Below the pieces are notes generated by a model that made no database searches, was not told the origin of the DNA, and worked only from the letters and a program-made list of their open reading frames with translations. A DNA stretch of 10,629 bases from a bacterium (GTDB lineage Bacteria > BMS3Abin14): NCBI GenBank assembly GCA_029210545.1, contig JARGFV010000088.1, positions 1 to 10,629 on the forward strand. Reading direction: 5' to 3'. Position numbers and translations under genes: made by a program. Shown here piece after piece: positions 7,025 through 10,629 of this stretch (the first letter of the stretch is position 1; each line of letters opens with the position of its first letter).

Positions 7025-7190
7025 TTGATGACTTCGCAAAAAGTCATCAACGCGCCCCGCGCGGGGCGCCTAAATCAATGGCTCACCCCGTAAGTCATTG
7101 ATTTGTAAGGAAAGGGAAAACCACGCTTTTCCGTTTCCCCAGGACATCAATGAGCCAGGAAAAGTTCCGCTTGGACTTTTTACGACCCTT
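7025..7190. repeat. Multi-hairpin repeat element, copy 1 (complete)
   Basis: Four stem-loops follow each other. Hairpin A has stem TTGATGACTT/AAGTCATCAA (7025-7034, 7041-7050). Hairpin B is the perfect 18-base palindrome GCGCCCCGCGCGGGGCGC (7052-7069). Hairpin C has stem AAATCAATGGCT/AGTCATTGATTT with one G-U pair (7072-7083, 7093-7104). Hairpin D pairs GGAAAA with TTTTCC (7115-7120, 7127-7132) and is extended by GGAAA/TTTCC (7109-7113, 7134-7138) across a one-base mismatch. The right end carries TGGACTTTTTACGA (7172-7185), the inverse of a TCGCAAAAAGTC-type sequence in hairpin A, so the element has short imperfect inverted ends. About 95 bases recur at 10535. It has no coding capacity. It lies between lon and the tRNA-Val promoter, where it could end lon transcripts. 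The right boundary is approximate. Confidence 0.8.
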
Positions 7191-7205
7191 ATCACTTTTA
7201 GATAG

Positions 7206-7234
7206 TTGACAGGGGGGCGCGAGAAGATTATAAG
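7206..7234 (+). promoter_or_regulatory. Strong sigma70-type promoter of the tRNA-Val/tRNA-Asp unit
   Basis: The consensus -35 TTGACA (7206-7211), a 17-base spacer and TATAAG (7229-7234, five of six to TATAAT) predict a start near 7241. That is about six bases before mature tRNA-Val. The spacer contains a G run and GCGCG just before the -10 box. A GC-rich discriminator typical of stringently controlled stable-RNA promoters is not obvious. Confidence 0.85.
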
Positions 7235-7246
7235 TATCCCCTCGTT

Positions 7247-7322
7247 GGGCGGTTAGCTCAGTTGGGAGAGCATCGGCCTTACAAGCCGGGGGTCACAAGT
7301 TCGAGCCTTGTACCGCCCACCA
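7247..7322 (+). tRNA. tRNA-Val (anticodon TAC), CCA encoded
   Basis: The acceptor arms GGGCGGT (7247-7253) and ACCGCCC (7312-7318) pair, counting the final T-A pair. The discriminator A is at 7319 and CCA at 7320-7322. The D arm reads TAGCTCAGTTGGGAGAGC. The anticodon stem TCGGC/GCCGG encloses CTTACAA with TAC at 7280-7282. The T arm contains GTTCGAGCC. It is the first gene of a two-tRNA unit. Confidence 0.98.
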
Positions 7323-7356
7323 CCAGCAGAAATGTTTTTTGACATAGAGCACATCA

Positions 7357-7433
7357 GGGGTCGTAGTTAAGCTGGTTATAACGCCGGCCTGTCACGCCGG
7401 AGGCCGCGGGTTCGAGTCCCGTCGACCCCGCCA
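7357..7433 (+). tRNA. tRNA-Asp (anticodon GTC), CCA encoded
   Basis: The acceptor arms GGGGTCG (7357-7363) and CGACCCC (7423-7429) pair perfectly. The discriminator G is at 7430 and CCA at 7431-7433. The anticodon stem CCGGC/GCCGG encloses CTGTCAC with GTC at 7391-7393. The T arm contains GGTTCGAGTCC. It lies 34 bases after tRNA-Val with no intervening terminator, so the two are processed from one transcript. Confidence 0.98.
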
Positions 7434-7445
7434 TTCAGGAACGAG

Positions 7446-7474
7446 GGGGCTGCAGGGGCAGCCCCTTTTTTTTT
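7446..7474 (+). terminator. Intrinsic terminator of the tRNA-Val/tRNA-Asp unit
   Basis: GGGGCTGC (7446-7453) and GCAGCCCC (7458-7465) form an 8-bp GC-rich stem with loop AGGG, followed directly by nine T residues (7466-7474). This is a textbook Rho-independent terminator 13 bases after the tRNA-Asp CCA. Confidence 0.95.
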
Positions 7475-7490
7475 GACAGGGAGACCATCC

Positions 7491-8060
7491 ATGATGAAAA
7501 TTCGTAATGTGACCACCTGTACAATGATCTCAGTAGCCCTTTCATTTGTGATCGGCATGCCTTTTTATTCGCTTGCTGCCGATAACAGCTTCCAGCTCGG
7601 TGAAGCTGAAACACTCCTGGAAAAGAAGGAGTATGAACAGGCTGTAGCCATGCTCGAGCCTATGCTCGAAGAGGAATCAGGAAACGGGGAGAAAGCACGG
7701 GTTCATTTTCTTCTGGGCCGGGTCCTTTACGAAAAGGCCTTTGCGTTTATAAACGCAAACCGGGTGGACGGTAAAGTCAAGTTCAAGGATATCGCCCCTT
7801 CCCAGGTGACCGAGCTGAAATCCGCCGCCGGACATTTCCTGCAGGTCGTGGAAATGGATCCCGATGGAAATCTTGTGCCGGATGCATACTTCATGCTGGG
7901 TAAGGTCTGGGATTACGATTGTCTCCAGAAGTTCGTTAAATCCAAAGAGGCCTATGGCAAAGCCGCTGAAATGAGGCCTGACACTGAAATAAGCAAGGAG
8001 GCCGCCAGCTGCGTGGAGCGGTTAGAAGGGTATTTCAGCTCCCATGAAAGCTCACACTAA
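7491..8060 (+). CDS. Secreted TPR-containing protein of unknown function
   Basis: This 189-residue protein has an N-terminal Sec signal peptide: a basic start (MMKIRN), a hydrophobic core (MISVALSFVIGMPF) and a likely cleavage site near residues 29-30 (SLAA/DN). There is no lipobox cysteine, so a soluble periplasmic product is expected. The mature part is helical, with TPR-like repeats: about 34-63 (AETLLEKKEYEQAVAMLEPM), 67-90 and 108-162 (LGKVWDYDCLQKF, EAYGKAAEMRPD). TPR proteins usually serve as scaffolds in envelope complexes; no specific partner can be named. I chose ATG 7491, spaced 7 bases from AGGGAG (7478-7483); ATG 7494 is also possible. The coding sequence begins only 17 bases after the tRNA terminator, leaving little room for a private promoter. 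yggS follows after 39 bases. Confidence 0.85.
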   Translation: MMKIRNVTTCTMISVALSFVIGMPFYSLAADNSFQLGEAETLLEKKEYEQAVAMLEPMLEEESGNGEKARVHFLLGRVLYEKAFAFINANRVDGKVKFKDIAPSQVTELKSAAGHFLQVVEMDPDGNLVPDAYFMLGKVWDYDCLQKFVKSKEAYGKAAEMRPDTEISKEAASCVERLEGYFSSHESSH

Positions 8061-8099
8061 TATCCCTTCAAGGACCGATAGTGGATTTTTAAAGTCAAC

Positions 8100-9414: not shown

Positions 9415-9434
9415 CGGGGTTTCGGGGTGAAAAC
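9403..9434. repeat. Octamer array overlapping the 3' end of the YcxB-like gene
   Basis: Units GTGTCGGA, GTAACGGG, GTTTCGGG and GTGAAAAC run in 8-base phase. The first unit and the TAA of the second form the end of the coding sequence. GTAACGGGGT (9411-9420) is the exact inverse of ACCCCGTTAC (9462-9471), so a 10-bp stem could form in the convergent gap and serve as a transcript end. Confidence 0.6.
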
Positions 9435-9450
9435 CCGAGGCTTCTTCTCA

Positions 9451-9543
9451 GATACACCGTTACCCCGTTACACTGATCCATTGCCAGATATCCTGGGCAA
9501 GGCCCTTCCTCTCCCATACTCCCATACCCCGTTACCCCGATAC
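9451..9543. repeat. Octamer arrays in the convergent gap before proC
   Basis: Two groups of 8-base units are present. At 9451-9471 they are GATAC, ACCGTTAC and CCCGTTAC. At 9512-9543 they are TCCCATAC twice, CCCGTTAC and CCCGATAC. The segment 9472-9511 between the groups is not periodic. Both groups are inverse in sense to the array at 9403-9434. Nothing else is recognised between 9415 and 9608; no U-tract terminator is evident for either convergent gene. Confidence 0.65.
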
Positions 9544-9608
9544 GTCACTTCTTTTTCACCCCGTGTCCCCCCTTCGCCGTGCCGCCGTGTCATGGGGAAA
9601 AGCGGGGG

Positions 9609-10421
9609 CTATCCTTGCCCGAGCTCCCCGGCCCGCTTCGCCGCCGCCAGCACTGCCTCAACGACAGCCTCGACAAACCCCGCTTTTCCCAACTCCGCAA
9701 GCCCTGCTTCCGTCGTCCCTCCCGGGGAGGTGACCATTTCCCTGAGGCGGGTGGGCGTTTGGCCCGTCTCCACCATCATCCGGGCCGCGCCCAGGATGGT
9801 CTGCCTGACAAGTTCTCCCGATTGTTCGACAGGGATTCCCGCGGCAACGCCGGCTTCGGTGAGAGCCTCGGCCATTCTGAAGATGTAAGCCGGCCCGCTG
9901 CCGGAAAGGCCGGTCACGGCATCCATAAGTTCTTCCGGCAAAACGTGGCAGCTTCCCACCGCGTGAAAAAGCTCCACCGCCCAGCGGGTCATGTCGGCGT
10001 GGACATGGCTTCCGGGTGAAATGACCGTCGCACCGGCTCCCACCAGGGCCGGGGTGTTGGGCATGGAGCGGATAACCCGGGCCCCGGGAAGGTTTCCTTC
10101 GAGGAAGGAGATCGTGATACCTGCCGCGATGGAGATCACCAGCGCTCCTTCGCGCAGTGTGCCCGAGATCTCATCGAGGATCCCTTGCATGACCTGGGGT
10201 TTGACGGCAAGGAAAATGGTCCCGCCGGCCACCGCCGCCTGCCTGTTCCCGGAAGTCACCTCGAAGCCGTAGGTGTTTTTCAGGTATTCGCACCGCGGGA
10301 CCAGGGGGTCCGAGATCATGATGGAGCCTGCCGGGACGATACCTGCCCTTACGATCCCCCCCGCAAGGGCCTCGGCCATGTTGCCTCCGCCGATAAAAGA
10401 TATGGTGTTTTTAAAATTCAT
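9609..10421 (-). CDS. proC: Pyrroline-5-carboxylate reductase
   Basis: ProC catalyses the last step of proline synthesis, reducing 1-pyrroline-5-carboxylate to L-proline with NAD(P)H in the cytoplasm. The 270 residues match the family. The N-terminal Rossmann fold has IGGGNMAEAL (10-19). AVKPQ (72-76) and RSMPNTPALVGAG (118-130) line the cofactor and substrate sites. The C-terminal helical dimerisation domain has VTGLSGSGPAYIF (169-181) and the family signature VTSPGGTTEAGL (230-241). The minus-strand AAAGG, about four bases before the ATG at 10421, supports the start. It is transcribed toward the yggS/YcxB-like genes. Upstream of it are heptamer arrays and the second copy of the hairpin element. 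Confidence 0.98.
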   Translation of the reverse strand: MNFKNTISFIGGGNMAEALAGGIVRAGIVPAGSIMISDPLVPRCEYLKNTYGFEVTSGNRQAAVAGGTIFLAVKPQVMQGILDEISGTLREGALVISIAAGITISFLEGNLPGARVIRSMPNTPALVGAGATVISPGSHVHADMTRWAVELFHAVGSCHVLPEELMDAVTGLSGSGPAYIFRMAEALTEAGVAAGIPVEQSGELVRQTILGAARMMVETGQTPTRLREMVTSPGGTTEAGLAELGKAGFVEAVVEAVLAAAKRAGELGQG

Positions 10422-10443
10422 GACACCTTTATAGCAATTTCAG

Positions 10444-10469
10444 ATTCCATATTCCATATTCCATATTCC
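10444..10469. repeat. Heptamer tandem array upstream of proC
   Basis: Three exact copies of the 7-base unit ATTCCAT are followed by ATTCC. It starts 22 bases upstream of the proC start codon, within its expected leader or promoter region. No clear -35/-10 pair for proC is visible on the minus strand. Confidence 0.8.
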
Positions 10470-10489
10470 GTCCTGGATTTTAATTAACC

Positions 10490-10516
10490 GTGAACCGTAG
10501 ACCGTAGACCGTGAAC
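10490..10516. repeat. Heptamer tandem array next to the hairpin element, copy 2
   Basis: Units GTGAACC, GTAGACC, GTAGACC and GTGAAC (last one incomplete) share the word family and orientation of the array at 6996-7022. In both places the array lies on the left side of the multi-hairpin element (18 bases away here). Confidence 0.8.
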
Positions 10517-10534
10517 TTGTCCCTAAAATCTTGG

Positions 10535-10629
10535 TTGATGGACTCGCAAAAGGTCCATCAACGCGCCCCGCGCGGGGCGCCCAAATCAATGACTCACACC
10601 GTAAGTCATTGATTTGTAAGGAAAGGGAA
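10535..10629. repeat. Multi-hairpin repeat element, copy 2 (cut by the window end)
   Basis: It matches 7025-7119 almost base for base. Hairpin A has stem TTGATGGACT/GGTCCATCAA (10535-10544, 10552-10561); its differences from copy 1 keep the stem paired. Hairpin B is the identical 18-base palindrome (10563-10580). Hairpin C is AAATCAATGACT/AGTCATTGATTT (10583-10594, 10604-10615), fully Watson-Crick here. The start of hairpin D is present before the window ends. It has the same orientation as copy 1. Confidence 0.85.

Follow-up and report, generated by a model that had tools for sequence, protein, structure and literature searches.

BOX elements of Streptococcus pneumoniae are short, intergenic, multicopy repeats of modular build with variable internal units and stem-loops, and they are MITE-like in having target-site duplications (TSDs) and terminal inverted repeats (TIRs) that resemble the resident IS element ISSpn2 (PMC3049150). 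BrickBuilt of Porphyromonas gingivalis is an intergenic, host-restricted MITE with an internal repeat array (PMC4596501). IS1272, a member of the IS1182 family, targets stem-loops and makes no TSD, and some members of this family insert at stem-loops (PMC5678879). In this study, we analysed a window of 10,629 nt, which is contig C88 of the source genome (2.72 Mb in 241 contigs), and its two copies of a multi-hairpin element. We consider it probable that they represent a MITE family with modular hairpins, moved in trans most likely by an IS1182-group transposase. The openly licensed papers searched included none on this family, although others may exist.

A preliminary description of the window had placed the two copies at 7025-7119 and 10535-10629. 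Both copies are real, with 96% identity over 74 nt, but both intervals are too short, as alignment with other copies shows the element to be longer. Copy 1 is a complete 167-bp element at 7027-7193 on the + strand in window orientation, and the first interval covers only its left 95 bp. Its limits were drawn from sequence, other genome copies and the TSD: the 6-bp sequence ACTTTT is repeated exactly on either side, at 7021-7026 and 7194-7199, and the left repeat also agrees with the TSD statistics of the family. Along the + strand, the element begins with the left TIR (7027-7048), which by sequence and folding is itself a hairpin, called hairpin A in the preliminary description. It is followed by the GC palindrome hairpin at 7052-7069 (the former B, here H4) and by hairpin C at 7072-7105 (H3), both recognizable as inverted repeats and corresponding to covarying helices 4 and 3. 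The former list is extended by two further hairpins downstream, both found by folding and corresponding to covarying helices 2 and 1: H2, GGAAAGGGAAAA...TTTTCCGTTTCC, at 7109-7138, of which only the start had been seen, and the right-end hairpin H1 at 7158-7184, which has approximate limits and includes part of the right TIR. The right TIR itself, GATAAGGGTCGTAAAAAGTC, occupies 7174-7193 on the - strand, as located by sequence and an end-pattern search. The folding of a 191-nt stretch exceeds that of shuffled sequences by a wide margin for either strand (z -5.6 and -5.0), and the ORF list of the window has none of at least 80 aa within 7027-7193. Copy 2 (10537-10629, + strand) contains hairpins A, B and C and the start of the next one, and is incomplete because the contig ends at 10629. 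It is preceded by its expected left TSD, TTGGTT (10531-10536), the partner of which would lie beyond the contig end.

Copy 1 is located between an ORF ending at 6929, which reads as a Lon-type protease from its translation, and tRNA genes at 7247-7430, and copy 2 lies upstream of a minus-strand gene (9609-10421) reading as proC from its translation. Degenerate short-unit direct repeats, with GTGAACCGTATACC-, CCCCGTTAC- and CATATTC-like units, adjoin both copies and are also found in other intergenic DNA (window positions 6931-7024, 9402-9549 and 10440-10518).

Read on the strand opposite to the window, the - strand for copy 1, the element consists of one end, a module with the hairpins in the order H1-H2-H3-H4, and a second end, which is the self-pairing hairpin A. 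The module, ~126 bp long with conserved linkers between its four hairpins, forms the core and occurs singly or in tandem arrays, mosaics and deletion forms. Among 60 loci of the source genome, 45 have one profile match, 12 have two and 3 have three. Element size ranges from 46 bp to ~370 bp, with most copies at 154-200 bp; the 46-bp elements are two ends alone, back to back, and at least one of them has a perfect TSD. In CP070698.1, four consecutive modules (locus L105, 4066-4583) have on each side a gene whose product reads as a pilus-type ATPase. This array, in a closed genome, begins within ~25 bases of the stop codon of such a gene.

The ends of the element are inverted repeats of the GATRGAGTCGCAAAAAGTC type. 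When up to 3 mismatches were allowed, the end pattern TTGATAGRGTCGCAAAAAGTC matched the genome 358 times (189 + 169), whereas the reversed control gave 0 matches. An exact 6-bp TSD was present at 25 of the 48 elements bounded by both ends, whereas 2,000 shuffles gave 1.5 on average and never more than 7, and the insertion target is AANNTT, often inside TCAANNTTGA. A 4-bp TSD with TGAT...ATCA ends was also considered and is disfavoured, since copies like the one with AAGGAA/AAGGAA speak for 6 bp and for GAT...ATC ends. In a comparison of two congeneric species, G004 and G009, one clean empty site could be aligned: the element with ATCGTT/ATCGTT in G004 is absent in G009, which has one similar site, ATCGAT, in its place. 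At a second site compared in G009, a short remnant of the ends is left, that is, a deletion remnant. Taken together, the TIRs, the 6-bp TSDs and the empty site identify the element family, as judged from its sequence, as a non-autonomous DNA transposon (MITE), which bears out the 'MITE-like' option of the preliminary description. A different element of 120-128 bp has the same end type (e.g. GACAGGGTCGTAAAAAGTC) with another interior and is possibly a second MITE family on that TIR (source-genome loci L082, C8:20001-40000, 19100-19219, and L072, C3:40001-50304, 4576-4703).

The same description had offered a REP-like family. On this origin, the copies would be REP/BIME elements, and a RAYT (TnpA_REP) tyrosine transposase would move them. 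The element is indeed palindromic, intergenic and present in high copy, like REP/BIME elements, and a RAYT gene is present with one element copy ~0.8 kb upstream. However, the repeats beside the resident RAYT gene are different ones, of the CCCCGGTGTCAGAG type, and the element carries TIRs together with 6-bp TSDs, neither of which belongs to REPs; HUH/Y1 transposition makes no TSD. With the flanking repeats and the TSDs both against it, this origin was not borne out and is extremely improbable. The RAYT gene (L032 1241-2400, contig C150 of the source genome) has its own inverted repeats, CCCCGGTGTCAGAG ... CTCTGACACCGGG, which are unrelated to the MITE.

The 60 loci were found in 746 kb of the source genome, from which about 200-220 copies per genome are extrapolated, taking the rest of the genome as alike; a first-look BLAST gave 351 candidates. 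Many contigs start within ~60 bp of a MITE end, which shows that copies interrupt the assembly and that the real copy number is probably higher. The MITE fragments assemblies of these uncultivated bacteria, and many contigs, including that of the window, end inside a copy. Another high-copy repeat, CATCGCGAGC...CGATCCCATAG, was noted in G009 (L218 16608-16853, contig C39) and occurs many times in G004. With coding density and gene positions taken from a home-made gene caller, 41 of 48 scorable loci of the source genome are intergenic at a predicted coding density of 83%, and no preferred orientation to neighbour genes was seen (14 co-directed vs 12 opposed).

A DNA search detected the element in 11 of 61 genomes, all of the same family. 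A covariance-model search, a kind of check proposed earlier, found copies with model R1 in 11 of 12 same-family genomes and in 0 of 133 others. The one same-family genome that lacks the element is G001, which is complete. The named records with the element are MAGs only (JALHUC010000074, JAFGWO010000102 and CP070698), and the plasmids, phages and viral contigs searched gave no match. In these searches, the MITE was confined to a single family of uncultivated bacteria.

The only TIR-bounded interval holding a transposase is a 1.67-kb segment of the source genome, C1:15756-17424. Its 531-aa open frame contains DUF772 and matches the NCBIfam IS1182 model at 93 bits, under the model cut-off of 270. 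Both ends of the interval, in inverted orientation, have 4 mismatches of 21 to the MITE end, while scrambled 21-mers match 0-1 times in 746 kb. An IS1182-like relative in G009 begins with GACGGACTCGCAAAAAGTA, 17/19 identical to the MITE end, and overall the MITE ends are identical at 15-17 of 19 positions to the IS1182-like elements of the source genome and G009. TIR-bounded intervals of 1.7, 3.1 and 5.5 kb at C3, C17 and C13 hold ordinary genes and were discarded as chance pairs, and other IS1182 remnants in the source genome, G003 and G009 were rejected as partners for having ends unlike the MITE TIR. An unrelated genome, G146, has four intact IS1182-like copies of 40% identity with GACGGGGCGGCAAAAAGTC-type (GAC...GTC) ends, and three of the four have 6-7-bp A/T-rich TSDs (AAATCTA, ATAAATT and AAAGCT). 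The C1 copy looks decayed, because no homology is detectable over the C-terminal ~100 residues and the sequences on its two sides do not form a TSD. Furthermore, a C1-type transposase occurs only in the source genome, G007 and G009 (partial) and is missing from other MITE-rich relatives, several of which are fragmented drafts. Owing to this decay and this patchy presence, movement of the MITE by an IS1182-like transposase is likely rather than proven. In such a mechanism, an IS1182-group transposase supplied in trans would bind the ~19-bp MITE ends and insert the element at AT-rich intergenic (TC)AANNTT(GA) sites, duplicating 6 bp. The ~126-bp four-hairpin module between the ends, present once or in tandem, gives elements from 46 bp to ~370 bp. 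Elsewhere in the source genome, an IS200-type TnpA gene adjoins an IS1182 fragment (L031 1440-2030, contig C27).

The hairpins are maintained by paired changes. Hairpin A changes on both stem sides, as had been described, and in the source genome it exists in two fully paired states, GATGGACT/AGTCCATC (33) and GATGACTT/AAGTCATC (28), with one mixed copy. The A-U to G-U change reported in hairpin C is likewise real, as the sequences of the two copies show. In a set of 122 distinct modules, 8 of the 10 top-ranked column pairs among 8,036 are stem pairs. Counted on a tree, 99 pair-to-pair switches occurred in H1-H3, compared with 0-17 when the partner was slid by 1-3 columns. Pairing holds in 93.1% of cells across 48 diverse modules, against 37-56% when slid, and double-change cells number 127, against 37 when shuffled; these cell counts overstate the independent events because copies within one genome are closely related, and the tree-based count is safer. 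Linkers (0.46 bits) and stems (0.44 bits) are about equally conserved, and loops vary freely (1.30 bits). The covariation, which had been suggestive from two copies, is now strong, the further copies being abundant and their stem changes compensated, and the hairpin structure is conserved.

Our tentative inference is that selection keeps the stems, acting either on a folded RNA or through a protein that binds the dyads, and that palindrome correction during replication may assist. That mutation by itself maintains the pairing, for instance through template switching or through conversion between the arms of imperfect palindromes, without selection on folding, is conceivable but rather doubtful. 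Long perfect dyads are substrates for palindrome correction, and the two symmetric states of hairpin A with their single mixed intermediate agree with such a process. So does the symmetric change that reaches positions 53/57, paired in 120 of 121 cells, since positions too close for an RNA loop fit DNA symmetry better. Correction alone, however, does not account for linkers as conserved as the stems beside free loops, and the mismatch types are unequal.

This inequality leads to the RNA explanations. A.C mismatches are more frequent than G.T mismatches on the module strand (101 vs 52 events; 127 vs 69 distinct), and A.C intermediates resolve to pairs more often (40 vs 5), as expected if RNA from the window + strand folds with G.U; together with covarying stems, conserved linkers and free loops, which are typical of structured RNA, this would fit a functional structured RNA made from that strand, with the transposon merely its carrier. 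As strand evidence the G.U asymmetry is suggestive, but a bias of this direction is also seen in unpaired columns (~170 vs 127), and mutation bias is therefore a possible source. Moreover, Rfam 15, a comparison called for in the preliminary description, gave no family for the element at gathering or permissive thresholds, only tRNAs and noise; the element shows no orientation bias to flanking genes, and the complete family-member genome G001 has no copy. We thus regard such an RNA as unlikely. The broader proposal, that the module is a functional folded RNA or single-strand DNA multiplied through one bacterial family by the MITE, with the pairing of one strand under selection, seems improbable as well.

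Few high-copy repeats of bacteria show real covariation. For this MITE, more than 100 diverged natural variants of one four-hairpin module are available, and they allow a direct test of whether its hairpins are kept by RNA selection, protein recognition or palindrome repair.

Among known systems, the IS1182 family (NF033551) is the likely source of the transposase, with related ends and, in a distant intact member, 6-7-bp A/T-rich TSDs, although the MITE shares with it only the ~19-bp ends and no internal sequence. The stem-loop targeting of IS1272 may bear on hairpin-rich MITEs of the IS1182 group. BrickBuilt resembles the present family as an intergenic, host-restricted MITE with an array of internal units, but its units are 23-nt minisatellites in 19 copies, whereas here they are covarying hairpin modules of an element with ~200 copies. 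Judging by architecture as described, BOX elements appear to be the closest known kind, sharing modules of variable unit number, hairpins, TSDs, and TIRs for which a resident IS with similar ends is, in the present family, the likely counterpart. Their host, ends and IS partner are all different and, in contrast to BOX, the present family repeats one four-hairpin module, the stems of which show extensive covariation across genera.
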